Shown here one piece after another: positions 6,911 to 45,059 of a stretch of DNA of 64,000 nucleotides. Each line of letters opens with the position of its first letter. The stretch's first letter is position 1. The notes beneath the pieces were generated by a model. That model was given only the letters and a program-made list of their open reading frames with translations. It was not told the origin of the DNA and made no database searches. Made by a program: the position numbers and the translations under genes. The DNA comes from Thioalkalivibrio sp. ALJ21 (lineage in GTDB: Bacteria; Pseudomonadota; Gammaproteobacteria; Ectothiorhodospirales; Ectothiorhodospiraceae): the NCBI RefSeq assembly GCF_000378605.1, contig NZ_KB905156.1, positions 124,001-188,000 of the forward strand, read 5' to 3'.

Positions 6911-7252
6911 ATGCCGCTTCTGCGAGTCGAGACCAACGCCGCCCTGCCCGACGATCCCGCGGGGCTGTGCCAACGCCTGTCCGCGCAGGTGGCCGACTGG
7001 CTGGGCAAGCCCGAGGGGTACGTGATGGTCGCCTGCACGCACAACCCGGCGATGTGCTTCGCCGGCAGCACCGACCCGCTCGCCTACTGCGAGCTGAAGA
7101 GCATCGGCCTGCCCGAGGGGCTGACCCGCGAGCTGTCACGCAAGCTCTGCGACGCCCTGCAGGCCGAACTGGGTCTGGACCCGGCCCGGGTCTATATCGA
7201 ATTCGCCGACGCCCCGCGCCACTTCTGGGGCACCAACAGCACGACGTTCTGA
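6911..7252 (+). CDS. MIF-like tautomerase (phenylpyruvate tautomerase-related)
   Basis: A 113-residue protein beginning MPLLRVETN; removal of Met would expose the N-terminal Pro that serves as catalytic base in the tautomerase superfamily. The length, the internal GYVMVACTHNPAMCFAGS segment and the C-terminal RVYIEFADAPRHFWGTN match macrophage-migration-inhibitory-factor-like proteins, which form trimers and keto-enolise phenylpyruvate-type substrates in vitro. The physiological bacterial substrate is generally unknown. The ATG at 6911 is preceded by GGGGAG, a good ribosome site, and upstream in-frame codons would destroy the N-terminal Pro. It is divergent from the RND operon and 58 bp before proS. 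Confidence 0.85.
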   Translation: MPLLRVETNAALPDDPAGLCQRLSAQVADWLGKPEGYVMVACTHNPAMCFAGSTDPLAYCELKSIGLPEGLTRELSRKLCDALQAELGLDPARVYIEFADAPRHFWGTNSTTF

Positions 7253-7310
7253 ATTCTCGCGGCCCGGTGGGCCGTCACTTCTCTCACGCACTTGATAACG
7301 GACTGCCCCG

Positions 7311-24156: not shown

Positions 24157-26592
24157 ATGCCCGATCACCCGGACAGCACCCGCTTTCAGCGCCTGTTTGA
24201 ACAGGCACCGGAGGCACAGCTGGTGCTCAATCGAGCGGGCCATGTTGTCGCGGCAAACCAGGCCGCATCACGCCTGCTCGGCTACGCCCAGGACGAACTG
24301 ACCGGCGGCATCCACATCACCACGATCGACCTCGAGGCCACGCAAGCCGACGTCGACCGTGCGCACGGCCAGCCCGACGAGCGCCTGCCGGCCCGCTTTG
24401 AAACGCGCTACCGCCGCCGCGACGGGGCGGAATTCCCGGCCGAGATCAATATCAACGCCATTCATACCGGGGAGGATATCGAGGTCCTGGCCACGGTCCG
24501 CGACATCACCCGGCAACAGCAGTCCGAGCAGGCCCTGCACGAACTGGAAACCCAGCTCTCGGCCACGATCCGTCACGCACCGCTGATCCTGTTCGGGCTG
24601 GGGCCCGATGGCGTTTTCACCCTGTCCGAGGGGGCTGCCCTGCACAGCCTGGGACTGCAACCCGGCGAGGTCGTCGGACAGGACGCACGCCTGTTGTACG
24701 CCGACCATCCGGCCATTCTGTCCGCGATCGACCGCGCGCTCGGGGGAGAACAATTCCAAAGCGAGGTCAAGGTCGGCGACAGCCACTTCGCCATCTCCTG
24801 GATGCCGATGGAGGTTGCCCAGTCACTTCAGCCGGGCGTGCTCGGTGTCGCCTGGGACATCACATCGCTGCGCGCGGCCGAGGCCAGCACCGCCTCGGAA
24901 CGCGACCGGCTCCTGACCACGCTGCACTCCATCAGCGACGGCGTGCTGACCGCGGACACCACCGGGCGCCTGACCTATCTCAACCCGTCGGCGCGCGACC
25001 TGCTGGGCGTGGACGCCACGGCGGTCCAGGGCCAGCGCCTCGACGAGGTGCTGGAACTCGAGGACACGCATACCGGCCACCGGGTTATGAATCCGGTCAC
25101 GCAGTGCCTGGAAACGGGCATGACGCTGGAGTCGCCGGAGCGCGTGCTGCGCCGTCCGGACGGGGCCGCGCGCGTGGTCCGTCTGCTGGTCTCGCCTCTG
25201 CGGCGACCGGACCACCACAGCGAGGGGGTCGTGGTCGTGCTGCACGACCACACCGAGCTGTGGCGCATGACCCAGCAACTGAACCACCAGGCTACCCACG
25301 ACGAGCTCACCGGCCTGTGCAACCGCCGCGAGTTCGAACGCCGCCTGGACGAGGCCCTGCGCACCCTGGAGGAGGGCGACACGCCCCACGCGCTGTTCTA
25401 CATGGACCTGGACCAGTTCAAGATCATCAACGACACCTGTGGCCACCAGGCCGGGGATGCACTGCTGCGCGAACTGGCCGATCTGCTCCCCGCCCACATC
25501 CGCGACAGCGACACCTTGGCGCGGCTCGGGGGTGACGAGTTCGGCCTGCTGCTGACGCATTGCCCGGTGGAACGCGCGGAGGCCATCGGCAAGAAACTGC
25601 TGGCGACCGCGCAGGGTCTGCGCTTCTCCTGGGAGGACCGCCGCTTCGATGTCGGCATGAGCATCGGCCTGGTCCCGATCGAGGGCCCCGGCCAGAATCT
25701 TCCGGAGGTCCTCAGCCAGGCGGATTCCGCCTGTTACGTGGCCAAGGATCTCGGGCGCAACCGCCTCTATACCTGGAAGCCCTCCGACCAGATCCTGCGC
25801 CGGCGCCATGGCGAGATGGAATGGGTCGGCCGTCTGCGTGCGGCGCTGGAGGAGGCCCGGTTTGTCGCCTATGCCCAGCCAGTCAAGCCCCTGAACGGCG
25901 CCGATCTGCCACTGGACCATGTCGAGATCCTGCTGCGTCTGCACGGGGAAGACGGAACCCTGATCACTCCGGGTGCCTTCATCCCGGCCGCCGAGCGCTA
26001 CCACCTGATGCCCGAGATCGATCGCCATGTGGTCGAACTTGTGTTCCGCCAGCTGGCCGATCACCGGGACCGGAACCCGCATCATGCCCCAGTCGTGGTG
26101 TCGATCAATCTGTCCGGACAATCGCTGGCGCAGGACGGGATGCTCGAGTTCATCACCAGCCGCATGAGCCAGTTCCGCATTCAGGCGCAGCAGATCATCT
26201 TCGAGGTTACCGAGACCGCCGCGATCAGCCATCACGACCGCGCGCAGGGTCTGATCCGCGCGCTGCGCTACATGGGCTGCCGCTTCTCCCTGGACGACTT
26301 CGGGAGCGGGCTGTCCTCGTTCGGCTACCTGAAGAACCTGCCGGTCGATTTCCTCAAGGTGGACGGCAGCTTCGTGCGCGACATCGCGACCAACGCCGTC
26401 GATGCGGCGATGGTCACCGCGATCCACCGCGTCGGCCATGTACTCGGGCTGCGTACTATTGCCGAGTGCGTGGAATCCGAGGAGACCATGCACCACCTGC
26501 GCGAGATCGGGCTCGACTTTGTCCAGGGCTACCACCTGGCAAAGCCAATGCCGCTGACCGATTACCTCGCGGGTCTTGCCGGCCAGGCTTGA
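24157..26592 (+). CDS. PAS-GGDEF-EAL cyclic-di-GMP signalling protein
   Basis: 811 residues with no membrane segment, so cytoplasmic. Three PAS-like modules occupy about 1-125 (FEQAPEAQLVLNRAGHVVAANQ), 130-250 and 255-370. The GGDEF domain (about 375-540) has an intact GGDEF motif near residue 456, so a cyclase is possible. The EAL domain (about 560-805) has EIL in place of EAL near Glu590 but keeps DDFGSG, SINLSG and VDFLKVDGSFVRDI. Phosphodiesterase activity is therefore plausible. Signals for the PAS domains are unknown; no haem or flavin motif is obvious. It stands as a single gene between queG and fpr. Confidence 0.93.
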   Translation: MPDHPDSTRFQRLFEQAPEAQLVLNRAGHVVAANQAASRLLGYAQDELTGGIHITTIDLEATQADVDRAHGQPDERLPARFETRYRRRDGAEFPAEININAIHTGEDIEVLATVRDITRQQQSEQALHELETQLSATIRHAPLILFGLGPDGVFTLSEGAALHSLGLQPGEVVGQDARLLYADHPAILSAIDRALGGEQFQSEVKVGDSHFAISWMPMEVAQSLQPGVLGVAWDITSLRAAEASTASERDRLLTTLHSISDGVLTADTTGRLTYLNPSARDLLGVDATAVQGQRLDEVLELEDTHTGHRVMNPVTQCLETGMTLESPERVLRRPDGAARVVRLLVSPLRRPDHHSEGVVVVLHDHTELWRMTQQLNHQATHDELTGLCNRREFERRLDEALRTLEEGDTPHALFYMDLDQFKIINDTCGHQAGDALLRELADLLPAHIRDSDTLARLGGDEFGLLLTHCPVERAEAIGKKLLATAQGLRFSWEDRRFDVGMSIGLVPIEGPGQNLPEVLSQADSACYVAKDLGRNRLYTWKPSDQILRRRHGEMEWVGRLRAALEEARFVAYAQPVKPLNGADLPLDHVEILLRLHGEDGTLITPGAFIPAAERYHLMPEIDRHVVELVFRQLADHRDRNPHHAPVVVSINLSGQSLAQDGMLEFITSRMSQFRIQAQQIIFEVTETAAISHHDRAQGLIRALRYMGCRFSLDDFGSGLSSFGYLKNLPVDFLKVDGSFVRDIATNAVDAAMVTAIHRVGHVLGLRTIAECVESEETMHHLREIGLDFVQGYHLAKPMPLTDYLAGLAGQA

Positions 26593-33196: not shown

Positions 33197-33931
33197 CTAG
33201 CTGATCCGGTCGAGCATCCCCTGATGACGGATCAACCGGGCAAACAGCCGCCCGGTGTGATACCAGTGCAGCATCCAGATTTCGCGCGCCAGACGCACCT
33301 GCGGCACCCGGGGCGAGCGCTCGGCAGGGCAGGGACAGACCTCGAGTCCCACCCCGCGCGCGATGGCCACCGCACGGGGCAGGTGAAAACGACTGGTCAC
33401 GAGCACACAGCGCGGCAGGCTGCCGCCGGTACGCTGGACGAGCAGGTCGCGGGCGTTTTGCAGATTCTCCAGGGTGTGCCGCGAGTCCTCTTCACAGAAG
33501 ATGCGAGAGGCCGGGATGCCGCGCTGGCGCAAAAAGGCCGCACCCGCAGCCGACTCGCTGGGCCCCTCCGGCGAGGTGTATCCGCCCAGCAGCAGAACGC
33601 GGGCCTCCGGGTCGCGCCGCAGCAGGCGCAGGGTTCGCAACAGGCGCAGCCGGTAACCCGGTCCAGGGCAACCCTCTTGTAACTGCTGTCCCAGGACAAT
33701 GATCCAAGGTGCCCGCCCGGGACAATCCAGGCTCCGGACCCACAGATGCATGCGCCCCCACAACGCGAGCCAGCTAAGCCCCGCCGTCAGCACAATGACC
33801 AGATTGGACAGCCCGAAGGTCAGCAGCCCGTCCGGCCCGACGCGCCGCAGTCCTACCCGACCGCCGATCACGACTCGCCCCCCATACTTGCCCCCTGGCG
33901 ATTCGCTGGCGGTCGACTGATCGCACCCCAT
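33197..33931 (-). CDS. DUF218 (YdcF/SanA-type) membrane-anchored protein
   Basis: About 244 residues. One membrane segment (LLTFGLSNLVIVLTAGLSWLAL split over about 35-56) precedes a DUF218 domain starting PWIIVLGQQL. VLLLGGYTSPEG, EEDSRHTLENLQNARDLL and LVTSRFHLPRAVAIARG are the family's conserved strands and acidic or His positions. Relatives (SanA, ElyC, YdcF) affect envelope integrity and vancomycin sensitivity; the chemistry is unknown. The start may be ATG 33931 or 33982. It is divergent from the polyene cluster. Confidence 0.8.
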   Translation of the reverse strand: MGCDQSTASESPGGKYGGRVVIGGRVGLRRVGPDGLLTFGLSNLVIVLTAGLSWLALWGRMHLWVRSLDCPGRAPWIIVLGQQLQEGCPGPGYRLRLLRTLRLLRRDPEARVLLLGGYTSPEGPSESAAGAAFLRQRGIPASRIFCEEDSRHTLENLQNARDLLVQRTGGSLPRCVLVTSRFHLPRAVAIARGVGLEVCPCPAERSPRVPQVRLAREIWMLHWYHTGRLFARLIRHQGMLDRIS

Positions 33932-34057
33932 GAGAGCACCCACTCTGCCGCCCCGCCCTGCAAAACCGCGTATTCCCTGCATTTGGAGGGTACCACGCCC
34001 CCTTGGGGTTGCGTATCATCGGCCCCGGGCCGGGAGGTGCACGGCGCGCCCAGCACC

Positions 34058-34150: not shown

Positions 34151-34423
34151 GTGGCAGCACAAACCGCAATGGAACAGGAAGTCGCCAGGCTGATCGTCGA
34201 CAGCCTGAATCTCGAAGAGGTCAGCCCCGAGGACATCGAGCCGGAGGCCCCCTTGTTCCGCGAGGGCCTTGGGCTGGACTCGATCGATGCGCTGGAACTG
34301 GCACTGGCCATCTCGCGGGCCTATGGCGTGCAGATCCGCTCCGATGACGAGAACAATCGCCAGATCTTCGCATCCTTGCGGGCCCTGACCGCCCATATCG
34401 AGGCGCACCGAGCCACGTCGTGA
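34151..34423 (+). CDS. Acyl carrier protein of the aryl polyene cluster
   Basis: 90 residues, acidic, with the phosphopantetheine site Ser in GLGLDSIDALELAL. DSIDALEL rather than DSLD.VEL is typical of ACPs in aryl polyene clusters. It would carry the growing polyene. The GTG start at 34151 is supported by GGGGAGAG a few bases upstream. First gene of the operon; its TGA overlaps the next GTG (GTGA). Most related clusters have two ACP genes side by side; only one is seen here. Confidence 0.9.
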   Translation: MAAQTAMEQEVARLIVDSLNLEEVSPEDIEPEAPLFREGLGLDSIDALELALAISRAYGVQIRSDDENNRQIFASLRALTAHIEAHRATS

Positions 34424-35034
34424 GTACCCGTCTCGCCGCCGCGGTAGCCCTGGGCTACCCGGTGGCCGTGATCACGGGCATTTTCCTGGAGCTGCCGCGA
34501 CTGCCGCTGGCCTGGCTGGCGCTGCTCATCCTGGTCCTCGCCTGGCCGGTCCTGCCCGTGCTCGGCCGAGCGGTGATGGCCCTGGTGCTGGCCGTGCTAG
34601 TGTTGCTTCTGGGTGCCGAGCCGGCCGGGAAATGGCTGATCTATGCAATACCGGTGCTTATTCAGGGGGCCCTGGCATGGCTGTTTGCCCGCTCCCTGCG
34701 TCCGGGCTCCACCCCCCTGATCACCCGGTATGCGCTGGCCATGGGCGCCTCCGACAGCACGCCGGTGCATCGCTATACACGGCGGCTGACCGCTGCCTGG
34801 GCCCTGCTGTGCGGTGGACTCGCCCTGCTGTCGGCGGTACTGGCGGTGGCGGTGCCCACCACCACCTGGGCCTTGTTCGCAAATGGGATCAACTATCTGT
34901 TCCTGGCGGCGCTGTTCATGCTGGAATATCCATTACGGCGCTGGCTTCTGCGCGACGAACCCCGGGCGGGTTTCCTGCCCTACCTCGCCGCACTGGCACG
35001 CGCCGACCACCGCCACATCCTGAGACAACGATGA
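34420..35034 (+). CDS. Aryl polyene cluster membrane protein (COG4648-type)
   Basis: 204 residues with about five or six hydrophobic segments (about 5-25, 28-50, 52-70, 72-90, 120-145, 150-170) and a basic C-terminus (ALARADHRHILRQR). Proteins of this kind are a fixed, functionally uncharacterised part of aryl polyene clusters, usually between the ACP and the AMP ligase genes, as here. It probably works at the inner membrane with the acyltransferase or exporter. Both ends overlap their neighbours by 4 nt (GTGA, ATGA). Confidence 0.8.
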   Translation: MSTRLAAAVALGYPVAVITGIFLELPRLPLAWLALLILVLAWPVLPVLGRAVMALVLAVLVLLLGAEPAGKWLIYAIPVLIQGALAWLFARSLRPGSTPLITRYALAMGASDSTPVHRYTRRLTAAWALLCGGLALLSAVLAVAVPTTTWALFANGINYLFLAALFMLEYPLRRWLLRDEPRAGFLPYLAALARADHRHILRQR

Positions 35035-36371
35035 GGGACTCGAACACGCTAGCGCTGATTGCCGACCACCCAACGCCACTGGCCTGGGTGGCGGGACGCC
35101 GTGTCTCGCGGGCCGCGTTTCTGACGGATGTGCGCGCCCTCGCCCGGCGCATCCCGGCCGGCGGAGCCCACTTCAACCTGTGCGAGGATCGCTATCGCTT
35201 TGCCGTCGCGTTTGCCGCGATCCTGCTGCGCGGGGGCGCTAACATCCTCCCTCCGAACCGCGCCCGGACAACCCTGAGCGAGATCGCCGAGCGTCATCCC
35301 GGCGCGCACGCCCTGGTGGACGAGCGGGACCTCAGTGTCACCCTCCCCGTCATCCCGGTCACCGCGGCCGGGACAGAGGACGCCCACAATGCGGGCGCGA
35401 CCCCGGAGATCCCGTCGGATCAGATGGCGGTACACGCCTATACCTCGGGCAGCACCGGACAGCCCACCGCTCACAGCAGGAGCTGGAACAGCCTTCATGT
35501 CGTGACCGCACAGGCCCTGCGCCGCTTCGGGCTGGATACCGACGGGGGAACACTGGTGGGGACGGTCCCCGCGCAGCACATGTACGGCCTGGAATCCACG
35601 GTGCTTTATGCCCTGCTCGGCCCCTGCACGCTGCTGGCCGAACGCCCGTTCTTCCCGGACGATATCCGCCAGGCCATGGCCGAGCATGCCCCGGCAAACC
35701 TGGTCACGACCCCATTTCACCTGGACGCCTGCCTGCGGGCGGGCCTGACCTGGCCCAGGGCGGCACGCATCCTCAGCGCCACCGCCCCACTGGAACAAGA
35801 CCGGGCACAGTCCGCGGAAACACTGTTTGGCACGACCGTCCGCGAGATCTACGGCTGCACCGAGGCCGGGGCCATTGCCAGCCGCGAGACGGCCCGGGAG
35901 CTCCTGTGGACGGTCTATGACGGGATTGCGCTGACGACCCAGGGCAGCGACCGGGTGGCGGTACAGGGACCCCAGCACCCGGCACCAGTCCCCCTGCCCG
36001 ACCGCATCGAGCGGGAAGGTGCCCAGCGCTTCCGCATGCGCGGACGCCTGGCGGATCAGCTCAATATCGCCGGCAAACGAGCCTCGCTGGCCGAGCTGAA
36101 CCGGCGCCTGAACGCCATTCCCGGCGTAGAGGACGGCGTGTTCATCCCGCCCGATCCCGGACAGGACAGCGGGACCGCCCGTCTGGCTGCGATCGTGGTC
36201 GCCCCGGAGCGCTCCGAGGCCGAGATCCTGGCGGCCCTGGCCGAAACCATGGACCCGCTGTTCCTTCCGCGCCCCCTGGTGATGGTGGGAGCCCTCCCCC
36301 GCAGCGCGACGGGCAAGCTCCCGCGCCAGGTCCTGCTGGACTTGCTGGACCAGCACGGGCAGTGCGCCTGA
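35031..36371 (+). CDS. Aryl polyene AMP-dependent ligase (aryl-acid activation)
   Basis: 446 residues of the ANL adenylating family. The phosphate loop is YTSGSTGQPTAHSRSW near residue 140. EIYGCTEAGAIASR is the A5-type core, and ATGKLPRQVLL near the end carries the catalytic Lys. It probably activates a hydroxybenzoate-type starter and loads it on the ACP. It begins at ATG 35031 in an ATGA overlap; in-frame codons upstream lie inside the membrane protein gene and are ignored. A dehydratase gene follows 3 bp downstream. Confidence 0.88.
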   Translation: MRDSNTLALIADHPTPLAWVAGRRVSRAAFLTDVRALARRIPAGGAHFNLCEDRYRFAVAFAAILLRGGANILPPNRARTTLSEIAERHPGAHALVDERDLSVTLPVIPVTAAGTEDAHNAGATPEIPSDQMAVHAYTSGSTGQPTAHSRSWNSLHVVTAQALRRFGLDTDGGTLVGTVPAQHMYGLESTVLYALLGPCTLLAERPFFPDDIRQAMAEHAPANLVTTPFHLDACLRAGLTWPRAARILSATAPLEQDRAQSAETLFGTTVREIYGCTEAGAIASRETARELLWTVYDGIALTTQGSDRVAVQGPQHPAPVPLPDRIEREGAQRFRMRGRLADQLNIAGKRASLAELNRRLNAIPGVEDGVFIPPDPGQDSGTARLAAIVVAPERSEAEILAALAETMDPLFLPRPLVMVGALPRSATGKLPRQVLLDLLDQHGQCA

Positions 36372-36374
36372 GCA

Positions 36375-36701
36375 ATGGCACCGATCATTGCCACGCGCCG
36401 CATCCCGGCCAGCCACCCCTCACTGCCCGGGCATTTCCCCGGTCAGCCGGTCGTACCGGGCGTGGTCATCCTGGCCACGGTGGACGCCGTCGCGCGCGCA
36501 AGCGGCCTGGGCCCGGTGGCCGCCCTGCCACGGGCGAAATTTCTGGCGCCGTTGCTTCCGGAGGTCGATTTCCGGGTGGAGATTGATCCCCCTGGTACCA
36601 GCGGCCTGCGCGCATTCCGCGTTATCCGCGACGGTGCGGAGACATCCGACCCCCTGTGTAGCGGACAACTGAAGCTGCACGACGCCGGACAAACGGCGTG
36701 A
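36375..36701 (+). CDS. Hotdog 3-hydroxyacyl-ACP dehydratase, ApeI-like
   Basis: 108 residues. The hotdog active-site segment ASHPSLPGHFPGQPVVPGVVIL is split over residues 12-33, with the catalytic His in GHFPG. In aryl polyene synthesis one dehydratase of this type removes water to make each conjugated double bond. The stop TGA overlaps the GTG of the acyltransferase by 4 nt, fixing the intended start of that gene. Confidence 0.82.
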   Translation: MAPIIATRRIPASHPSLPGHFPGQPVVPGVVILATVDAVARASGLGPVAALPRAKFLAPLLPEVDFRVEIDPPGTSGLRAFRVIRDGAETSDPLCSGQLKLHDAGQTA

Positions 36702-37593
36702 GCCGGGGGTGGTTCAGCCAGGGGGAGCGAGGGTCCCCCCTGGCGCTGCGCATCATCCTGTGGGTTGCTCTGCATCTCGGGCGGCCGGTCGCGCACTGCT
36801 CTACCCGATAACCGCCTACTTTCTTCTGTTTGCCCCGAAATCCCGGGGTTACAGCCGGGACTACCTGCGCCGCGTGCTCGGACGCGAGCCGCGCCTGCGC
36901 GAGATTGCCCGGCACTTCCACAGCTTCGCGGCCGTGATCCTGGACCGCGTCTTCCTGCTGGCCGGCAAGGACGCGTGCCTGGATCTTCATGTCCACAATC
37001 GCGAGATCTTCCTCGAGCATGTCGAAAGCGGCCACGGGGCCCTGCTGCTGGGGGCACACCTGGGCAGTTTCGAGGCCCTGCGGGTACTCGCGGTCGGCAA
37101 GAACGACTTTCCCGTGCGCGTGCTGATGTACCGCGATCACAATCAGCGCATCACCCAGTTGCTGGAGGCGCTTAACCCCGAGGTCGCCGCGTCGGTCATC
37201 CCCCTGGGGGACACCGAGACCCTGCTGCACGCCCGCGACTGTCTGGAACAGGGGGGGATTGTGGCCACCCTGGCCGATCGCGTGGCCGAGAGCGACAAGA
37301 TGGTGGAATGCCGTTTCCTCGGGGGACGGGCCTTTTTTCCCCAGGGTCCCCTGCTGCTGGCCGCAGTGCTGAAGGTCCCGGTCATCCTGTGCTTCGGCCT
37401 CTATCGCGGCGGCAATCGCTACGATATCGTCTTTGAACGCTTTGCCGACGTCATCGAGGCCCCCCGCGGCCGACGCGAAGAGGCCCTGGCCGAATGGGTG
37501 CAACGCTACGCCGATCGCCTCGAGACGCGCGTGCGTGAGGCCCCGTACAACTGGTTCAACTTCTATGATTTCTGGAATGACTCGTCCCGCTAA
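36698..37593 (+). pseudogene. LpxL/HtrB-type acyltransferase of the polyene cluster, frameshifted near the 5' end
   Basis: The GTG at 36698 (GTGA overlap) opens a frame reading MSRGWFSQGERGS...WVALHLGRPVA, the normal N-terminus and first helix of aryl polyene acyltransferases, but it stops 12 bp past 36796. The rest of the protein continues in another frame from RALLYPITAYFLLF to the stop at 37593, with the HX4E catalytic motif in GAHLGSFE. A loss of 1 or 4 bases in the GTCGCGCACTG stretch near 36790 explains this. A GTG at 36709 would give 294 residues with an unrelated head. The enzyme would attach the polyene to a lipid. Pseudogene or sequencing error. Confidence 0.75.
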
Positions 37594-38194
37594 GCCTTGC
37601 TACCGGCAACTGCTCGGGGTCCGAGCACTGGCCCTGGCGGTGCTCCTGCTGGCCTGCCCGCTGTTCGCCAAGGCGGAAACCTCCGGTGACACACTGGACC
37701 AGATCCTGGAAGCACTGGCCGACAATCCGCCTTCACGTATCGACTTTCGCGAAACCCGCCAGGACCCCCTGCTCGAATTCCCCGAGACCCGCACCGGCAC
37801 GCTGGTGTTCGAGCCGCCGGACACCCTGGAGCGTCGGATGGATGGCGACGGCGGCGAACGCGTGCGGATCGAGGGACGCCAAGTAATCGTGGAGCGCCGA
37901 GGCTCCAGCCGCGAGGTGGACCTGGACGAGCAGCCGGGTCTGGCCGCGTTTGCCGCCTTGTTCCGCTCCCTCGCCAAGGGGGAACGCGAGGGACTGGAAG
38001 AACACTTCGAAGTCGAGACCGAAGGCGACCTGGAGGCCTGGAGGCTGGAACTCACTCCGCGTGACCGCGCCCTTCGCCGCATGATCCTCGGACTCGACCT
38101 CCAGGGCGAGGGCGGTGCCCTCCTGCGCCTGGATACCGAGGAGTCAGGAGGGCGCCACAGCCGCATGCAGCTTGATCCGCAAGACGGCGACTGA
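37577..38194 (+). CDS. LolA-like periplasmic carrier protein of the polyene cluster
   Basis: 205 residues. The signal peptide is LALAVLLLACPLFAKAE, cleaved after AKA. The mature part has the LolA-type opening (LDQILEALADNPPSRIDFRETRQDP) and beta-strand-rich body, including TGTLVFEPPDTLERRM and FEVETEGDLEAWRLELTPRD split over about 147-167. In aryl polyene clusters such proteins are thought to move the lipid-linked polyene across the periplasm. The ATG at 37577 overlaps the acyltransferase end by 17 nt. Confidence 0.83.
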   Translation: MTRPAKPCYRQLLGVRALALAVLLLACPLFAKAETSGDTLDQILEALADNPPSRIDFRETRQDPLLEFPETRTGTLVFEPPDTLERRMDGDGGERVRIEGRQVIVERRGSSREVDLDEQPGLAAFAALFRSLAKGEREGLEEHFEVETEGDLEAWRLELTPRDRALRRMILGLDLQGEGGALLRLDTEESGGRHSRMQLDPQDGD

Positions 38195-38197
38195 TTG

Positions 38198-40582
38198 GTG
38201 CCGAATCGCTTTCCCCTGTCACCGGGACCGGCGCTCTGGCTGATCGGGCTGCTGGTGGCAGCCAGCATCCTGCTGTGGCGGGGCGAGCTGGTCACCGACC
38301 TTCAGGGCTTCACCCCGGAGCCGGTCACCGAGACCGGGGTGGCGCTGGACCCCGGGGGCGGCCCGGCCGGACAGATCCTGCTGCTGGGCATCGAGGGTGG
38401 CAGCAGCCAGGCACGCGCGGATGCCAGCGACCATCTGGTCGAGGCGCTGCGCGGCCACCCCACGGTCGGCGAAATCCGCAACGGGCGTCTCGACCCGGAT
38501 GACCCCGCCCTGGATTTCCTGCTCGAGCACCGCTATCTCCTGAGCCCCGAGGTCACCCCGGAGCGCTTCTCTGTCGACACCCTGCGCGACCAGCTCGAGG
38601 AACGTCGGGAGGACCTCGGTAGTGCCGCACCTCTGATGCCCCGGGAACTGATCGGCCGCGACCCCACGGGCGAATCACTGGTGGTGCTCGAACAGCTGGG
38701 ACAGGCCGGCGGCGGGGGCGAACGCGACCGCCACGGCGTCTGGGTCGACCCCGAGCGCGAGCGGGCCCTGCTGGTCCTGCACAGCGCGGCCGAAGGCATG
38801 GATCTGGACGGTCAGGAAGCGCTCCTGAAGGCGCTGGACGAGGCCTTCGCCGAGTACGCGGACGATCTGGACCTGCTCGTCGCGGGACCCGCGGTGATCG
38901 CAGTCGAATCGCGCGGGCGCATCCGGGGCGAGATCACCGTCTTCAGCCTGGCCGCCAGTCTGGCCCTGGCCACGCTCCTGCTGGTCGTGTTCCGCCACCC
39001 CCACCCGGTCTGGCTCGCGGCCGTTCCGCTGGCCACCGGCATCCTGGCCGGGGCGGCGGTCGTGACCGTGGTCTTCGGCCACCTGCACGGGATCGCACTG
39101 GCGTTCGGCATTACCGTGCTGGGCATCGCGCTCGACTACCCGTTGCACCTGTTCGCGCACAGCCGGCAGCCCCCGAGTGACGGGATGCGCGGCGTGGCGC
39201 GCGAGCTGTGGCCGGCGATTGGCCTGGGTGCCGGGAGCACGGTACTGGTCTACGCGCTGATGGCGATCACGGGGTTTTCCGGCATGGCCCAGCTCGGGCT
39301 GTTCGTACTGACCGGTGTCGGCGTGGCCGCGCTCACCACGCGCTGGGTACTGCCCCAACTGATGCCACTGGCGCTGCAACGCGACGGGGTGCCCCCGGCC
39401 CGCCTGCCGGTACCGGCCGCCCTGACACAGCCGCCAGTGACGGCGCGCTGGATCCTGGCCGCCTCCGTGCTGGGGGCCCTGGTGGTTATCGCCAGCGCCG
39501 ACCCGTTCCCCTGGGAGGACAACCTGGGTGCCCTGCACCCGGTGCCGCAGGAGCACATCGACCGCGACCGCGAACTGCGCCACGCCCTGGGGCTGCCGGA
39601 TATCCGCCATGCCCTGCTGATCACCGCGTCCGACCCCGAGCGGGCGCTGCAGGCCGCCGAGGCGCTGACCCCGGGCCTGGAAGACCTGCGCAACCAGGGG
39701 GTGCTGACCGCCTACGACCATGCGGCCCGGGCCTTGCCGAGCCAGGCCCTGCAGCGCATACGCCAGGGTGCCCTGCCCGCCGCGGACACCCTGCGCGAGC
39801 GGCTGGACACTGCCGTCGACGGGCTGGGTTTTCGCGCAGACGCCTTCGATCCCTTTCTGGAGGATGTGGCCCGGACCCGTGATCTGGAGCCGCTGACCCC
39901 GGCCACACTGCCCGACGGCCCGCTGCGCCAAACGACAGGCACCCTGCTGATGCCGGACGAGGAGGGCGGCGACTGGATGGCCTGGGTACGGCTGAGCGGC
40001 GTGGAGGATGCAACCGAGGTGAGGCAATGGCTGCAGCGGGAACCGCTGGCAGACCTGCCCGGCCTGGCCGATGTGGGCGTACAGCACGTGGATTTCCTGC
40101 GCGCCTCGGAGGACCTGGTCAGCGGATTCCGCGATCAGGCGCTGGAGCGGCTGGCCCTCGGTGTGGTGGCCGTCACCCTGTTGCTGTTGCTGGCCACCCG
40201 CGCCCCCGGGCGCAGCCTGCGCATCCTGACCGCAGTAGGGAGCGGGCTGGTCCTGACCGTGGCCGCGCTGATCCTGCTCGGGATTTCCCTGTCCCTTTTC
40301 CATCTGATCGCGTTGTTGCTGATCGTTGGCCTGTGCCTGGACTACGCGGTGTTCTTCAGCCGCCCGCTGAGAGACCTGCAGGCACGCCAGAACACGGCCG
40401 CATCGGTCAGCATCTGCGCATTGTCCACCGTGGCCGTGTTTGGCCTGCTGGCCCTTTCCAGTCTTCCGGTATTGCGGGCCATGGGGCTCACCGTATTACT
40501 GGGCGTGATATTTTCCTTTCTCGCAGCCGCGCTTCTGGCGCAGCCCCCCCGGTCGCGCCGTACAGTAGCCGTTGACCACTAA
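38198..40582 (+). CDS. MMPL/RND-type exporter of the polyene cluster
   Basis: About 794 residues. An N-terminal helix precedes a large periplasmic domain (about 35-240). Helices 2-6 contain GHLHGIALAFGITVLGIALDYPLHLFAH split over about 285-312, the MMPL signature with Asp in TM4. A second periplasmic domain (about 430-645) and a second helix set with LLIVGLCLDYAVFFSRPL follow. It is expected to extract the polyene lipid from the inner membrane. The start may be GTG 38198 or the adjoining TTG 38195. Confidence 0.88.
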   Translation: MPNRFPLSPGPALWLIGLLVAASILLWRGELVTDLQGFTPEPVTETGVALDPGGGPAGQILLLGIEGGSSQARADASDHLVEALRGHPTVGEIRNGRLDPDDPALDFLLEHRYLLSPEVTPERFSVDTLRDQLEERREDLGSAAPLMPRELIGRDPTGESLVVLEQLGQAGGGGERDRHGVWVDPERERALLVLHSAAEGMDLDGQEALLKALDEAFAEYADDLDLLVAGPAVIAVESRGRIRGEITVFSLAASLALATLLLVVFRHPHPVWLAAVPLATGILAGAAVVTVVFGHLHGIALAFGITVLGIALDYPLHLFAHSRQPPSDGMRGVARELWPAIGLGAGSTVLVYALMAITGFSGMAQLGLFVLTGVGVAALTTRWVLPQLMPLALQRDGVPPARLPVPAALTQPPVTARWILAASVLGALVVIASADPFPWEDNLGALHPVPQEHIDRDRELRHALGLPDIRHALLITASDPERALQAAEALTPGLEDLRNQGVLTAYDHAARALPSQALQRIRQGALPAADTLRERLDTAVDGLGFRADAFDPFLEDVARTRDLEPLTPATLPDGPLRQTTGTLLMPDEEGGDWMAWVRLSGVEDATEVRQWLQREPLADLPGLADVGVQHVDFLRASEDLVSGFRDQALERLALGVVAVTLLLLLATRAPGRSLRILTAVGSGLVLTVAALILLGISLSLFHLIALLLIVGLCLDYAVFFSRPLRDLQARQNTAASVSICALSTVAVFGLLALSSLPVLRAMGLTVLLGVIFSFLAAALLAQPPRSRRTVAVDH

Positions 40583-40620
40583 CATCCGATGCCGATCCCC
40601 CGCCAACTGCAGCCCGCCGA

Positions 40621-41805
40621 ATGAATCCACTGGTAATCTCCGCCCACACCCTGACCTCCGCCACCGGAACCGGCCGCCAGGCCAACGCCGACGCACTGCA
40701 CAAAGGGTACAGCGGGCTGCGCGCCTGCGACCTGGACTCCGTGCGGCTGGACACCCACATCGGGCGTGTGGCGGGTGTGGAGGCGATCGTGCTGACGGAT
40801 CACCTGGCCCCGTTCCAGTGCCGCAACCACCAGCTGGCCGAGCTGGGGCTGCGCCAGGATGGCTTCATCGAAGCCGTCGAGATCGCGCGCGAGCGCTACG
40901 GGGCCGGGCGCATCGCAGTCCTGATGGGCACCAGCACCTCGGGGATCGCCGCGACGGAACAGGCCTACCACCGCCGCGACCTGGCCACCGGGGATCTGCC
41001 ACCGGACTACGACTACCAGCACACCCAGAACATGTTCTCGCTGGCCGATTTCATTGGCACCCGGCTCGGGCTGCGGGGACCGGCGATGGTGGTCTCCACG
41101 GCCTGCTCGTCCAGCGCCAAGGTCTTTGCCGACGCCGAACGCTTTATCGCGGCCGGGCTTTGCGACGCGGCGGTGGTCGGTGGGGTCGACAGTCTCTGCG
41201 GCATGACCCTGCACGGTTTCAATGCGCTGCAGCTCGTGGCCCCGGAACCCTGCCGCCCGCTGCATGCCGAGCGCGCCGGCATCTCCATCGGCGAGGCTGC
41301 CGGATTCTTCCTGCTGGAGAGGCCCGACAACGGCGCGGCCGGTCCCCGGCTGATCGGCCACGGCGAATCCAGCGATGCCCACCACATGTCGGCCCCGCAC
41401 CCGGAAGGGCTCGGTGCAGCGCGGGCCATGGAACAGGCCCTCACGCGGGCACAGCGGTCCGCCGGGGCCATCGACTACGTGCTTATGCATGCCACCGCGA
41501 CCCCCGCCAACGACCGCTCCGAGGCACGCGCCCTGGCGCGCCTGTTTGGCGCAAAGAGCCGCGCCACCGGCACCAAGGGCCTGACCGGTCACACCCTTGG
41601 GGCGGCCGGCGCGGTCGGGGTCGCGCAGGCACTGGCCAGCCTGGAGAGGGGCTTCGTGCCCGCCACGGCGGGGCTCGACCACCTGGACCCTGAGCTTGAA
41701 CTGGACGCCCGGGGGGCCGCTGAGGAACGCGACATCCGCCACGTACTCGTAAACGCCTTCGGCTTTGGCGGCAACAATTGCAGCCTGCTGCTGGAGGCCG
41801 CATGA
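40621..41805 (+). CDS. Aryl polyene beta-ketoacyl synthase
   Basis: 394 residues of the KAS I/II fold. The catalytic triad is complete: Cys162 in VSTACSSSAK, His in MHATATPANDRSE and His in KGLTGHTLGAAGA, followed by the FGFGGNN C-terminal loop. It extends the polyene chain by malonyl-derived units, with the chain length factor encoded directly downstream (ATGA overlap). The start ATG at 40621 lies 38 bp after the exporter stop. Confidence 0.9.
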   Translation: MNPLVISAHTLTSATGTGRQANADALHKGYSGLRACDLDSVRLDTHIGRVAGVEAIVLTDHLAPFQCRNHQLAELGLRQDGFIEAVEIARERYGAGRIAVLMGTSTSGIAATEQAYHRRDLATGDLPPDYDYQHTQNMFSLADFIGTRLGLRGPAMVVSTACSSSAKVFADAERFIAAGLCDAAVVGGVDSLCGMTLHGFNALQLVAPEPCRPLHAERAGISIGEAAGFFLLERPDNGAAGPRLIGHGESSDAHHMSAPHPEGLGAARAMEQALTRAQRSAGAIDYVLMHATATPANDRSEARALARLFGAKSRATGTKGLTGHTLGAAGAVGVAQALASLERGFVPATAGLDHLDPELELDARGAAEERDIRHVLVNAFGFGGNNCSLLLEAA

Positions 41806-42578
41806 AGGTTGGTATTGCGGCCGTTGGCCTGCTGGGTCCGGGCCTGTCCGATTTCGCCTCGGCGCGCCCCGTCCTTGCCGGGCAGGAGCCCCATGAGCGG
41901 GCACCGGTGACCATCCCGCCGACCACCCTGCTGCCGGCCAACGAGCGCCGCCGCACGACGGACACCATTCGCCTGGCGCTGAAGGTCGCGGAGGAGGCCA
42001 CGGCCGACTGCGACCGCAGCCAGCTGCGCTCGGTGTTCGCCTCGTCCTCCGGGGACATGGACATCATCGACCGCATCTGCGAGGCCCTGACACAGGCGGA
42101 GCCCATGGTCTCGCCCGTGCAGTTCCACAACTCGGTACACAACGCCCCCGCCGGCAACTGGTCGATCGCGACCGCGAATCCGGCCCCGGCAACGGCCATC
42201 TCCGGTTTCGATGCAACGCTGGCGGCGGGGTTGCTGGAGGCCGCCACGCTACTGCAGGCTGGCAGTGGCGAGGTCCTGCTGGCCGCCTACGATGTCGCCT
42301 CCATGGCCACGTTCCGGCGTGTACGGCCCATCACCGAGTCGTTTGCCGTCGGCCTGCGCCTGTGTCCCGCAGGTGCCGGGCGGCCCACCCTCGAGCTGGC
42401 CCTGGGAGAGGGCAGCGACCCCACCCCCTGCCGCCAGGACTCGCTGGAGGCCCTGCGCGGCACCAACCCCGCTGCCCGTTCCCTGCCCCTGCTGGAGGTG
42501 CTCGCGCGCGGCGAAGGCGGTCATGTTACGCTTGCCGCGCCACTGGGACGATCGCTGGAGATTCGCGTCACGCCCTGA
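41802..42578 (+). CDS. Aryl polyene chain length factor (ketosynthase-like)
   Basis: 258 residues, much shorter than a ketosynthase, with VFASSSGDMDIIDRICEAL and FHNSVHNAPAGNWSIATANPAP. No catalytic Cys is seen where ketosynthases have one. It is expected to form a heterodimer with the preceding ketosynthase and limit the number of extensions, like type II polyketide chain length factors. The start ATG at 41802 forms an ATGA overlap. Confidence 0.85.
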   Translation: MKVGIAAVGLLGPGLSDFASARPVLAGQEPHERAPVTIPPTTLLPANERRRTTDTIRLALKVAEEATADCDRSQLRSVFASSSGDMDIIDRICEALTQAEPMVSPVQFHNSVHNAPAGNWSIATANPAPATAISGFDATLAAGLLEAATLLQAGSGEVLLAAYDVASMATFRRVRPITESFAVGLRLCPAGAGRPTLELALGEGSDPTPCRQDSLEALRGTNPAARSLPLLEVLARGEGGHVTLAAPLGRSLEIRVTP

Positions 42579-42628
42579 TCTTCCGGTGGTTTGCCTCTCG
42601 CATTAACAACGGATCAGGACGATCCCGC

Positions 42629-43084
42629 ATGAAGGCCGCCAGCCCCCAACTGAACCACGAGGCGATCTGCCGCATGCTGCCGCATGCAGGCGCAATGTGC
42701 CTGCTGGAGACCGTGGTCGGATGGGACGAACAGGCGATCCGTTGCCGCGCCATCAGCCACCGCGCCCCTGACAACCCCTTGCGCAACACCACCGGGCTCC
42801 CGGCCCTGTCGGCGCTGGAGTACGGCGCCCAGGCGATGGCCGTACATGGCGCCCTGCTGGCCGACGCCGGACCACCCAAGGCCGGCTTCCTGGCCGCAGT
42901 CCGCAACCTGCGCGTGCACCGGACTCTGCTGGACGACCTGAATGCGGATCTCGACATCACGGCCCGCAGCGTGATGTCGGATCGCAACAGCTCCATCTAT
43001 GATCTCGAGGTATCGGCCGACGGCGAGCCCGTCCTGTCCGCGCGGGCGACCGTGATCCTGCAAACCGAGGACACCCCGACATGA
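42629..43084 (+). CDS. Hotdog dehydratase, ApeP-like
   Basis: 151 residues. CRMLPHAGAMCLLETVVGWDE has the His characteristic of the polyene-cluster dehydratase. DNPLRNTTGLPALSALEYGAQAMAVHGAL is split over about 52-80. Together with the small ApeI-like protein it would make the double bonds, and pairs of such hotdog proteins are common in these clusters. Its stop overlaps the ketoreductase start (ATGA). Confidence 0.85.
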   Translation: MKAASPQLNHEAICRMLPHAGAMCLLETVVGWDEQAIRCRAISHRAPDNPLRNTTGLPALSALEYGAQAMAVHGALLADAGPPKAGFLAAVRNLRVHRTLLDDLNADLDITARSVMSDRNSSIYDLEVSADGEPVLSARATVILQTEDTPT

Positions 43085-43803
43085 GCCATCGTGCACTGAT
43101 CACCGGCGCCAGCGGTGCCATCGGCCAGGCCATCGCACGGGCCCTGGCCGATGGCGGCTGCGAGGTTTTGCTGCACGCACACCGCAACCCCGAGCCTGCC
43201 CGCGAGCTGGCCGAACAGATCCACTCCGACGGCGGTCAGGCGGATGTCCTGGTCTTCGACATCACCGACGCCGATGCCGCGCGGGCGCAGCTGGAGCCCG
43301 TCGCGGCTGCGCAGCCGGTGCAGATCCTGGTTCACAACGCGGGCGTGCACGACGACGCGCCGCTGGCCGGCATGAGCCCGGAACAATGGGCCCGGCCGAT
43401 CGATGTCGCGCTCAACGGGTTCTACAACGTGGCCCAGCCGCTGCTGCTGCCCATGATCACCACCCGCTGGGGTCGCGTGATTGCGATCTCCTCGGTAGCC
43501 GGCGTGGTCGGCAACCGCGGCCAGGCCAACTACGCCGCGGCCAAGTCCGGGCTGCACGGGGCCATCCGCTCGCTGGCGCAGGAGGTCGGGTCGCGCGGCA
43601 TCACGGCCAATGCGGTCGCGCCGGGGATCATCGAGACCGCGATGAGCGAGTCGAGCTTCGACGCCGAGACGATCAGGCGCATGGTGCCCGCGCAGCGCGC
43701 CGGACGCCCCGAGGAGGTCGCCGGACTGGTGGCATATCTGGCCTCCGAGCAGGCCGGCTATGTCTCCGGCCAGGTGATCGGCATCAATGGCGCACTGGCC
43801 TGA
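43081..43803 (+). CDS. 3-ketoacyl-ACP reductase (FabG-like) of the polyene cluster
   Basis: 240 residues, classical SDR. Cofactor loop TGASGAIGQAIA, NAGVHDDAPL, catalytic Ser in ISSVAGVVGN and Tyr-Lys in YAAAKSGL, and the VAPGIIETAMSE loop are intact. It reduces the 3-keto group after each condensation, before dehydration. In many related clusters a second ketosynthase follows; here a glycosyltransferase does. Confidence 0.92.
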   Translation: MSHRALITGASGAIGQAIARALADGGCEVLLHAHRNPEPARELAEQIHSDGGQADVLVFDITDADAARAQLEPVAAAQPVQILVHNAGVHDDAPLAGMSPEQWARPIDVALNGFYNVAQPLLLPMITTRWGRVIAISSVAGVVGNRGQANYAAAKSGLHGAIRSLAQEVGSRGITANAVAPGIIETAMSESSFDAETIRRMVPAQRAGRPEEVAGLVAYLASEQAGYVSGQVIGINGALA

Positions 43804-43812
43804 CCCGAACCG

Positions 43813-44553
43813 ATGGCGGTCGTCCACGCGCTGATACCGGCCCATAACGAGGCCCCCACGATCACCGCCGTCGTCGCGGCCACACGCCCCCATGTCGACC
43901 GGGTAATCGTGGTCGATGATGGCTCGCGGGATGACACCGCCGACCGGGTCCAATCTGAACCCGGGGTCGTGGAGGTCCTGCGCTTACCGCAAAACCGCGG
44001 CAAGGCGAACGCGCTGTGGACGGGTATGCAGCACGCCCTGGAACAGGGAGCGGACGCCGTGGTCACGCTGGATGCGGACGGCCAGCACGATGCCTCTGAG
44101 ATCCCGAACCTGATCACCGCCTGGCAGGCCCACCCCCACCATCTGGTGATCGGGGCACGGCTCAAAGGCAGGGAAACAACGCCCCCTCTGCGCCTGTTCG
44201 GCAACCGCACCGCCGACTTCTGGATTGGCTGGGCCTCGGGACAGCCGCTGCGCGACTCGCAGTCCGGCTTTCGTCTGTATCCGGCCGACCTGTTGCGACG
44301 CCTGGAGCTGCCTCATGGCGAGCGCCGCAGCTTCGTATTCGAGAGCGAGGCCCTGATCGAGGCCGAGCGCCTGGGCTTCCCGGTCACCCTGGTACCCGTG
44401 CGCTGCATCTACCCGGACCAGCACCGCGCCAGCCATTTCCGGGCCGCAACGGATACCCTGCGCATTATCCAGATGGTTGCCCTACGCCTGCTGGCACGTG
44501 GTCTCCACCCGCTCGGTCTGTTGAGGCATCTGGGACTGCTTCGCAGACCCTGA
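43813..44553 (+). CDS. Family 2 glycosyltransferase of the polyene cluster
   Basis: 246 residues, GT-A fold. HALIPAHNEAPTI and VIVVDDGSRDDT are the nucleotide-sugar binding core and LDADGQHD holds the DxD metal site. No strong membrane segment is seen apart from the hydrophobic C-terminal LLARGLHPLGLLRHLGLL. It may glycosylate the lipid anchor or transfer a head group. Clusters of the aryl polyene type often carry a GT2, sometimes fused to the acyltransferase. Last gene of the operon, 9 bp after the reductase. Confidence 0.83.
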   Translation: MAVVHALIPAHNEAPTITAVVAATRPHVDRVIVVDDGSRDDTADRVQSEPGVVEVLRLPQNRGKANALWTGMQHALEQGADAVVTLDADGQHDASEIPNLITAWQAHPHHLVIGARLKGRETTPPLRLFGNRTADFWIGWASGQPLRDSQSGFRLYPADLLRRLELPHGERRSFVFESEALIEAERLGFPVTLVPVRCIYPDQHRASHFRAATDTLRIIQMVALRLLARGLHPLGLLRHLGLLRRP

Positions 44554-44663: not shown

Positions 44664-45059
44664 ATGTCTGCAAGACTCCTGCTGCTCCTGCTCGTGGCCG
44701 GCGTGCTCGTACTCGCGGGCTGCCGCGGTACCGCACCGGTGCATGATGTCAGCGACACCACGGTCACCGATGTGCACGGCGAGCGCCCAAGCGCAGAGCA
44801 GATGCAGCAGGCGATCCGCAACGCCGGCGCGGCACTGGGCTGGCAGATCAGCGAAACCGAGCCCGGCCTGCTCGAAGGTCGGCTGTCGCTGCGCGACCAT
44901 ATTGCAGTGGTCGAAATCCCCTACAGCGACGGGGCGTACAGCATCCGCTACAAGGACAGCTCGAACCTCGACTACGAAGATGGTCGCATCCACCCGAATT
45001 ACAACAACTGGGTGCAGAATCTGGACAACCAGATCCGCGCGGAAATCTCGGCGCTCTAA
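44664..45059 (+). CDS. Small conserved lipoprotein, unknown function
   Basis: 131 residues. The lipobox is LVLAGC, so Cys20 would be lipidated. The mature part has LGWQISETEPGLLEGRLSLRDH and the conserved YSIRYKDSSNLDY...IHPNYNNWVQNL block, typical of a widespread short proteobacterial lipoprotein without known role. AAGGA lies 8 nt before the ATG. A strong terminator follows, so it is probably its own unit. Confidence 0.75.
   Translation: MSARLLLLLLVAGVLVLAGCRGTAPVHDVSDTTVTDVHGERPSAEQMQQAIRNAGAALGWQISETEPGLLEGRLSLRDHIAVVEIPYSDGAYSIRYKDSSNLDYEDGRIHPNYNNWVQNLDNQIRAEISAL

Follow-up and report, generated by a model that had tools for sequence, protein, structure and literature searches.

A xanthomonadin-type polyene operon and an unlinked chorismatase-methyltransferase pair as candidate natronochrome genes of Thioalkalivibrio

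Which pigment does the polyene operon of Thioalkalivibrio sp. ALJ21 make, and where does its aryl starter come from? The operon, twelve genes all on the plus strand at positions 34151-44553, lies in a stretch of 64,000 nucleotides from this Thioalkalivibrio genome, which we refer to as the window. An original prediction, made from the letters of this DNA, had assigned the genes to the aryl polyene/xanthomonadin type and regarded the set as reduced, perhaps decaying, and dependent on a starter made elsewhere. The genus is also that of natronochrome and of its chloro form, known by name as chloronatronochrome; in the available text of the 2011 genome paper natronochrome is a membrane-bound yellow, highly unsaturated pigment whose genes were unidentified at that time, and strain K90mix is reported as a producer (PMC3368412). 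A literature search, outside which lay supplementary files and most subscription papers, found no later gene assignment, and papers on how Thioalkalivibrio adapts to cold, oxidises thiocyanate and makes betaine mentioned the pigment via references only.

The open reading frames were identified by Pfam, NCBIfam and PDB searches, and the operon extends exactly from the start of the acyl carrier protein (ACP) gene to the stop of the glycosyltransferase (GT2) gene. Its genes and the divergent neighbour are as follows.

33197..33982, minus strand: DUF218 gene, divergent from the operon (PF02698, 91.7 bits)
34151..34423, plus strand: single ACP (PF00550, 39.7 bits; NF006617, 139.1 bits, cut-off 70)
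34420..35034, plus strand: membrane protein in the ApeG/arcU place, label from gene order only
35031..36371 (start chosen), plus strand: AMP ligase (PF00501, 63.4 bits, cut-off 29.9)
36375..36701, plus strand: FabA-like dehydratase in the ApeI place (PF07977, 25.2 bits, cut-off 23; ApeI-like below cut-off)
36709..37593 (start uncertain), plus strand: LpxL-type acyltransferase (PF03279, 39 bits, cut-off 22.3)
37577..38194 (start chosen), plus strand: LolA-like carrier (PF19574, 65.6 bits, scored on the longer reading frame from 37433)
38195..40582, plus strand: MMPL/RND-type exporter (PF03176, 47.4 bits)
40621..41805, plus strand: ketosynthase, KS (NF006618, 494.3 bits, cut-off 407; PDB 7f28_B 3.1e-63, 6qsp_A 4.6e-62)
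41802..42578, plus strand: KS-fold chain-length factor, CLF (PF13723, 103.3 bits; PDB 6qsp_B 1e-9, 7f28_A 1.3e-7)
42629..43084, plus strand: ApeP-like dehydratase (PF22817, 25.7 bits, slightly below its Pfam cut-off, 27)
43081..43803, plus strand: SDR ketoreductase, KR (PF13561, 169.8 bits; NF004200, 341.7 bits, cut-off 273)
43813..44553, plus strand: free-standing GT2 of the polyprenyl-phosphate glycosyltransferase type (PF00535, 85.5 bits)

These family matches, together with a gene order like that of the Azoarcus arc genes, bear out the predicted type. The KS and the adjacent half-size, KS-fold CLF match the partner chains of 6qsp and 7f28, and they are accompanied by one ACP, a ligase, two dehydratases (the second just under its Pfam cut-off), a KR, an acyltransferase, a LolA-like carrier and an exporter, as expected of the xanthomonadin type. 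The prediction had also counted a single ACP, and PF00550 and NF006617 found just one in the operon; it had placed a separate glycosyltransferase at the end, where the GT2 indeed stands, with PDB matches to an ArnC-type transferase (1.2e-6) and dolichol-phosphate mannose synthase (9.4e-6). Its statement that a second ketosynthase is missing holds for a second catalytic KS, of which the operon has none; a KS-fold CLF does stand at 41802-42578. Residues C162, H290 and H324 of the KS are invariant across five aligned loci, as is the Ser of the ACP motif GLDSID across six. For the conserved Gln of the Lysobacter CLF, given as Q166 in the available text of PMC3691225, no confident counterpart could be placed in the operon CLF. 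The reading frame at 34420-35034 yielded no family match at E 0.001 and no convincing one at 0.1 in the Pfam, NCBIfam and PDB searches, and has a counterpart in 12/12 named Thioalkalivibrio loci.

All twelve genes are present in unchanged order in ten of these twelve loci, the exceptions being L010, a MAG without GT2 despite 5.7 kb of sequence after the KR, and L012, which ends inside dehP. When the operon genes were compared with those of four close relatives on the best aligned segment per gene, dN/dS was 0.05-0.38 and the aligned stretches contained no stops (chorC3 rows, in which the query aligned to a paralogue, were excluded). The operon is thus intact and under purifying selection, and the order kept across loci together with low dN/dS places it beyond chance occurrence. 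That the operon is of the aryl polyene kind but reduced or in decay, with no starter of its own, is hardly credible: this idea can point to the one ACP, to the lack of a thioesterase and an ApeR-type KS in the operon and to a genome without ammonia lyase, but decay is contradicted by the substitution ratios and by the lack of stops in the aligned stretches, chorismatases are present in the genome, and the same composition is found in Lysobacter and Azoarcus.

In the available text on these two genera (PMC3691225, PMC3949708), the clusters likewise carry a single polyene ACP, pair the KS with a half-size KS-like protein and encode the glycosyltransferase as a gene of its own, which leaves 'reduced' unsupported for the ALJ21 operon; it is the E. 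coli aryl polyene (APE) type that has two ACPs and three KS-like genes. The closest likeness is to the arcuflavin (arc) genes of Azoarcus sp. BH72, which, as described in the accessible part of PMC3949708, share with ALJ21 both the order ACP, hypothetical protein, ligase, dehydratase, acyltransferase, LolA and exporter (arcV to arcP) and the order KS, N-terminal-KS protein, dehydratase and reductase (arcK to arcH), as well as one ACP in the polyene loci, a separate glycosyltransferase and a division over two unlinked loci. The arc set also includes a chorismatase, a halogenase and a methyltransferase (arcM), as in Thioalkalivibrio. In Azoarcus, however, the core itself is split over the two loci and a dialkylresorcinol cluster is also present, whereas in ALJ21 the twelve core genes stand together and chorismatase and methyltransferase lie apart. 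The 'yellow' xanthomonadin-like cluster of Lysobacter enzymogenes OH11, as far as the available text of PMC3691225 describes it, shares the single ACP, the KS with its half-size partner, two dehydratases, KR, acyltransferase, LolA-like carrier and exporters, a dolichyl-phosphate-mannose-synthase-like gene beside KS-CLF, and a cluster without thioesterase or methyltransferase; it differs in carrying its chorismatase inside the cluster (ORF5) and in listing no halogenase. E. coli CFT073 has the ACP, COG4648, ligase, two dehydratases, acyltransferase, LolA, exporter, KS-CLF and KR functions in common with ALJ21, but in the accessible text of PMC8253772 it has two ACPs, an initiating KS (ApeR), a thioesterase, a glycosyltransferase-acyltransferase fusion and 4-HBA from UbiC. 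The ALJ21 operon has one ACP rather than two, no thioesterase ApeK, and separate GT2 and acyltransferase genes in place of an ApeJ fusion. With one ACP, no ApeR-type KS and no UbiC, the APE type (E. coli, Xenorhabdus) was rejected.

Searching the whole genome for partners absent from the operon, we found two KS by PF00109, the operon KS and one, taken to be FabF, that adjoins a FabG-like gene; a third KS-like gene is absent from these matches, and an ApeR-type second catalytic KS is likewise absent from the operon. As predicted, neither a thioesterase nor an aryl-acid-forming enzyme occurs among the operon reading frames, and PF00221 detected no aromatic ammonia lyase in the genome, ruling out a starter of that origin. 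UbiC is absent from the genome, which excludes it as a source too. What the genome does encode are two FkbO/Hyg5-type chorismatases, both unlinked to the operon and both below the NCBIfam subfamily cut-off (TIGR04444), in line with the expectation that the starter is made elsewhere. The original prediction had suggested looking for a XanB2-like chorismatase, which is thus present in two copies, and had named the missing genes in a second, linked cluster as evidence against it; a second locus does exist, but it is unlinked. One chorismatase adjoins mutM and the other (333 aa, G000:C1), the copy that co-occurs with the operon, adjoins a UbiE-like methyltransferase. Xanthomonadin-type systems use 3-hydroxybenzoate as starter; of the three CH-II residues, both ALJ21 chorismatases retain two, Gly and Cys, and have Ala in the third place (mapped by offset), and their product is not predictable from sequence. 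The methyltransferase is not UbiE itself, since it scores below the cut-offs of curated UbiE models (144.1 bits against 216; 135.9 against 158.35) and the genome has a separate canonical UbiE (C2:548489, 425.8 bits against 378).

Among 47 genomes of the family, in which KS matches below 40% and KR matches below 50% identity were left out of the operon survey, 12 of the 15 genomes with the operon have two chorismatases, against none of the 32 without it, and for the methyltransferase the counts are 14/15 and 0/32, respectively; because the genomes of the genus are kin and reflect about a single gain and a single joint loss, these counts are not independent. The divergent DUF218 gene accompanies the operon in 15/15. 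In relative G025 the operon and the chorismatase-methyltransferase pair are both cleanly absent at their two sites (matches below 35% identity were left out of the comparison at the latter), and DUF218 is lost with the operon at the valS locus. G025 groups inside the operon-bearing clade, with a fork of 91/88 on the mutM tree and, together with G020b, 100/100 on the chorismatase tree (25 mutM and 37 chorismatase rows, out of 54 chorismatase matches). G032, a 66% complete genome whose cluster shows no GT2, bears the operon and shows neither the second chorismatase nor the methyltransferase.

We considered whether a natronochrome-like polyene might draw its starter from the mutM-linked chorismatase alone, as a bifunctional XanB2-like enzyme for ubiquinone and pigment, the second copy serving another use or an extra dose. 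G012 and G022 have the operon and the methyltransferase but, of the two chorismatases, just the one linked to mutM, which means that the second is not essential; the genome's lack of UbiC and, in the available text of PMC3949708, the service of XanB2 to both pathways in X. campestris agree with such a division. We nevertheless regard this as unlikely, as the second copy forms one clade that stands directly before the methyltransferase in 12/12 genomes, is absent from G025, as the operon is, and has counterparts neighbouring a methyltransferase inside polyene clusters L176 and L178, which come from other genera.

This association extends beyond the family. In 369 gammaproteobacterial genomes, all 22 with the methyltransferase have a CLF, within 8 kb in 6/22, while 64 of 86 CLF-bearing genomes lack a methyltransferase match; at most seven first-look candidates were scored per genome, so that misses are possible, and the two draws of 369 were taken as the same sample from their shared handles. 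CLF, methyltransferase and chorismatase lie together in clusters L176, L177, L178 and L180, among ten inspected of which six had been picked for a known nearby methyltransferase, with overlapping weaker matches left out. We lean towards the view that at least 15 gammaproteobacterial families have recruited a UbiE-related clade as a methyltransferase dedicated to aryl polyenes, and that in Thioalkalivibrio it may form, with the second chorismatase, a detachable natronochrome locus, a halogenase cassette beside the core operon providing optional chlorination. The clade would offer a candidate enzyme for the methylation of xanthomonadin-type pigments, a step that the available text of the Lysobacter paper assigns to no known enzyme (PMC3691225).

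Taken together, our data suggest that a working xanthomonadin-type type-II PKS operon and the unlinked chorismatase-methyltransferase pair most likely make natronochrome, a yellow and probably protective pigment. The sequences show the gene set, its conservation and purifying selection, the co-occurrence, the linkage in other genera and the joint absence in one relative; we infer each enzymatic step, the succession of steps and what the product is. The dedicated chorismatase would convert chorismate to a hydroxybenzoic acid, which the AMP ligase would load as starter onto the single ACP; KS-CLF, ketoreductase and the two dehydratases would build the polyene, and the UbiE-like enzyme would methylate the aryl hydroxyl, although we only infer O-methylation as the enzyme belongs to a C-methyltransferase family. 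Acyltransferase and GT2 may then attach the product to either a membrane lipid or a sugar carrier, and the LolA-like and MMPL proteins may move it outwards. Slightly less probable than a starter from the mutM-linked enzyme is that the operon yields a different aryl polyene, natronochrome being the work of genes outside this set. We know of no pigment described from ALJ21, which leaves room for this idea, but the single genomic KS besides the operon KS means few PKS candidates elsewhere in the genome, the optional halogenase fits the chlorinated pigment of T. versutus, and the K90mix-like genome G016 (identity tentative) carries the operon, the second chorismatase and the methyltransferase. Natronochrome and chloronatronochrome would now have candidate genes, and the role of the pigment in salt, light and oxygen stress becomes testable in soda-lake sulfur oxidisers.

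A flavin halogenase adjoins the operon in 8/15 operon-bearing genomes, including T. versutus AL2, and could produce a chlorinated form as well in these strains. Chloronatronochrome was reportedly described from T. versutus ALJ 15, and AL2 is a different strain of the same species. In ALJ21 no flavin halogenase lies beside the operon, and this strain should therefore make unchlorinated pigment only; more generally, we predict the chloro form in strains with the neighbouring halogenase and none in strains without it. A weak PF04820 match elsewhere in the ALJ21 genome (C1:24954, E 4.5e-4) lies in a stretch without operon, chorismatase, methyltransferase or halogenase matches at E 1e-4. The nearest solved relative of the operon-adjoining halogenase is PltA (E 3.8e-52). 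FADH2-dependent halogenases carry the motifs GxGxxG and WxWxIP, and the two halogenase proteins inspected, both from relatives of ALJ21, contain GGGPAG and WIWMIP.

The twelve-gene operon was predicted to lie at 34151-44553, and ORF coordinates confirmed this position in the ALJ21 genome (2.96 Mb, 5 contigs). It begins with genes for an acyl carrier protein (ACP), a membrane protein in the place of ApeG/arcU, an AMP ligase, a FabA-like dehydratase, an LpxL-type acyltransferase and a LolA-like carrier, and continues with an MMPL exporter, a ketosynthase (KS), a chain-length factor (CLF), an ApeP-like dehydratase, a ketoreductase and a GT2 glycosyltransferase. With the starts as chosen, adjoining genes either overlap or are separated by no more than 50 bp, so the operon is likely to form one transcription unit. 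The surrounding features are:

24157-26592 and 52691-54778, GGDEF/EAL proteins with PAS domains, one on each side of the region
33197-33982, minus strand, DUF218 gene
44664-45059, plus strand, putative small lipoprotein gene 3' of GT2, without a family match

In a PDB search, KS and CLF matched the partner chains of 6qsp and 7f28, the former being the APE complex ApeO-ApeC. A scan reaching close relatives returned exporter matches from Thioalkalivibrio records only (12 loci, identity up to 93%); ten of these loci carry the twelve genes in identical order, while no GT2 is shown in L010, from a MAG, and the sequence of L012 stops inside dehP.

The original prediction regarded this operon as reduced and possibly decaying. 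Compared with the E. coli APE cluster, with its pair of ACPs and its three KS-like genes (PMC8253772), the ALJ21 operon indeed contains one ACP and a KS with a CLF. However, these supposed anomalies are what is usual in xanthomonadin-type clusters, as those of Lysobacter OH11 and Azoarcus BH72 share them. As described in PMC3691225, the Lysobacter cluster comprises one ACP, two dehydratases and a KS adjoining a half-size KS-like protein, with a dolichyl-phosphate-mannose-synthase-like gene next to the KS, half-size KS-like and dehydratase genes, and it is without a thioesterase or a methyltransferase. The Azoarcus polyene genes, in the account of PMC3949708, occupy two unlinked loci and include a free glycosyltransferase, a chorismatase, a halogenase and a methyltransferase; from arcV (ACP) to arcP (exporter) their order is that of the ALJ21 operon. 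Decay was not borne out either: against ARh2, ALJ3, G016 and G024, operon genes gave dN/dS values of 0.05-0.38 and the aligned segments contained no stops. For the ACP, G016 has an identical copy and G024 one with zero nonsynonymous changes, and both the KS Cys/His/His residues (5 sequences aligned) and the ACP serine (6 sequences) are invariant.

The aryl starter had been expected to come from elsewhere in the genome, with a XanB2-like chorismatase as one candidate source, and our genome search did recover two FkbO/Hyg5-type chorismatases from ALJ21, together with no aromatic ammonia lyase and no UbiC. Hyg5 is the closest PDB relative of both, and both keep its C-terminal Cys and Glu. Their scores of 244.9 and 193.0 lie below the NCBIfam subfamily cut-off of 325, so the product is not assignable by the subfamily model. 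One type directly precedes mutM, overlapping or abutting its start, in 25 of 25 loci examined, as in this pair:

L018:8050-8994 with 7242-8057, chorismatase/mutM pair

This type is present with and without the operon, and also in two genomes of other genera; given that UbiC is absent from ALJ21, it is probably the 4-hydroxybenzoate enzyme of ubiquinone synthesis. The second type forms one clade (100/99, chorismatase tree) and directly precedes a UbiE-like methyltransferase gene in 12 of 12 genomes, at a locus with a SpoT/RelA-abhydrolase pair on one side and an amidohydrolase gene on the other.

Among 47 genomes of the family, CLF was found in 15 of 30 Thioalkalivibrio and in none of 17 from other genera. 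Two chorismatases occur in 12 of the 15 CLF-bearing genomes and in 0 of 32 without CLF, the exceptions being G012 and G022 (taken as HL17 and ALJ24), with one each, and the 66% complete G032, with none. The methyltransferase, at 71% identity or more, accompanies CLF in 14 of 15 genomes (missing from G032) and in 0 of 32 others, where the best match reaches 36%. G012 and G022 carry it at the usual amidohydrolase locus; in this lineage a long GGDEF/EAL gene (L112:6350-9835; also L113) stands upstream, in the chorismatase's place. In the mutM tree, the 14 represented CLF-bearing genomes and G025, which lacks CLF, form one clade (99/100), with G025 nested inside (91/88); the chorismatase tree groups G025 with G020 (100/100). 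Because the genomes are kin and G025 falls inside the CLF-bearing clade, the pattern reflects roughly a single gain and a single joint loss rather than 47 independent points. In G025, the lipoprotein and zapG genes come immediately after valS, DUF218 and operon being absent; at the second locus the amidohydrolase gene comes immediately after the abhydrolase gene, with no chorismatase or methyltransferase. valS likewise adjoins zapG in outgroups G013 and G015. Retention of the lipoprotein gene at this empty site marks it as flank rather than operon. The DUF218 gene, present in 15 of 15 operon-bearing genomes, is gone with the operon from the G025 valS site, and L176, a polyene cluster from outside the genus, also has a DUF218 gene beside GT2. 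The DUF218 gene may therefore be part of the pathway.

Across 369 gammaproteobacterial genomes, CLF was detected in 86; a methyltransferase match with E of 1e-36 or lower was obtained in 22, from 15 families, all 22 with CLF (Fisher p 1.2e-15, kinship not corrected); 64 of the 86 have no methyltransferase match. The two genes lie within 8 kb in 6 of the 22. We fetched these six clusters, chosen for that proximity, and four others: the ten contain the methyltransferase in 6 (by choice), a chorismatase in 5, a halogenase in 3 and DUF218 in 1. In L178, chorismatase adjoins methyltransferase in the Thioalkalivibrio order, beside ligase, halogenase, GT2, ketoreductase, dehydratase, CLF, KS and exporter genes. 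The Thioalkalivibrio second locus looks like a part of this polyene pathway that has become detached. The fetched clusters are not all of one make, since the methyltransferase-bearing L175 has a second KS-like stretch (L175:16002-16778, G246:C62), perhaps an ApeR-like initiating KS. L177 (2101-5674, G094:C48), from another family, has a polyene cluster directly beside a mutM-chorismatase pair, which hints at how chorismatase and polyene cluster became associated.

The dedicated, chorismatase-linked methyltransferase METHYLTRANSFERASE falls under every UbiE cut-off of the curated models. We rejected its identity as canonical UbiE, which is a separate gene:

C2:548489 (ALJ21 genome), canonical UbiE, 425.8 bits against a cut-off of 378

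The Lysobacter authors postulated a methyltransferase, the enzyme not being known to them (PMC3691225), and our analysis names a candidate for the xanthomonadin-type class. Azoarcus ArcT is described as disfavouring 3-methoxybenzoate (PMC3949708), so methylation there would come after activation. We infer O-methylation by this UbiE relative, which would act on the aryl hydroxyl of the ACP-bound or finished polyene.

Collectively, operon and second locus represent one xanthomonadin-type aryl polyene pathway divided between two sites in the genome, and natronochrome is its most likely product. This pigment is a methoxyphenyl polyene ester. G016 (taken as K90mix) has the operon, the second chorismatase and the methyltransferase, and lacks the halogenase. 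According to reference titles, the genus makes natronochrome and chloronatronochrome; K90mix is reported to make natronochrome, and its genome paper describes the responsible genes as still to be identified (PMC3368412), a gap that our assignment would fill. Our literature search, with supplements and most subscription journals outside its range, returned no gene assignment for natronochrome, so these clusters may appear uncommented in some listing.

A halogenase gene, divergent from the operon, lies between DUF218 and ACP in 8 of 15 CLF-bearing genomes (T. versutus AL2, AKL19, ALE31, ALE14, ALJ7, ALMg11 and ALJ16, strains as assigned, and MAG G032) and is absent beside the operon in 7, ALJ21 included. 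PF04820 at E 5.5e-14 or better picks out exactly these eight among the 47 genomes; G014, without the operon, gave a weaker match (E 1.9e-11). Flavin and WxWxIP motifs are present in the two sequences inspected, and the nearest relatives are PltA and ChlB4, whose substrates are carrier-bound.
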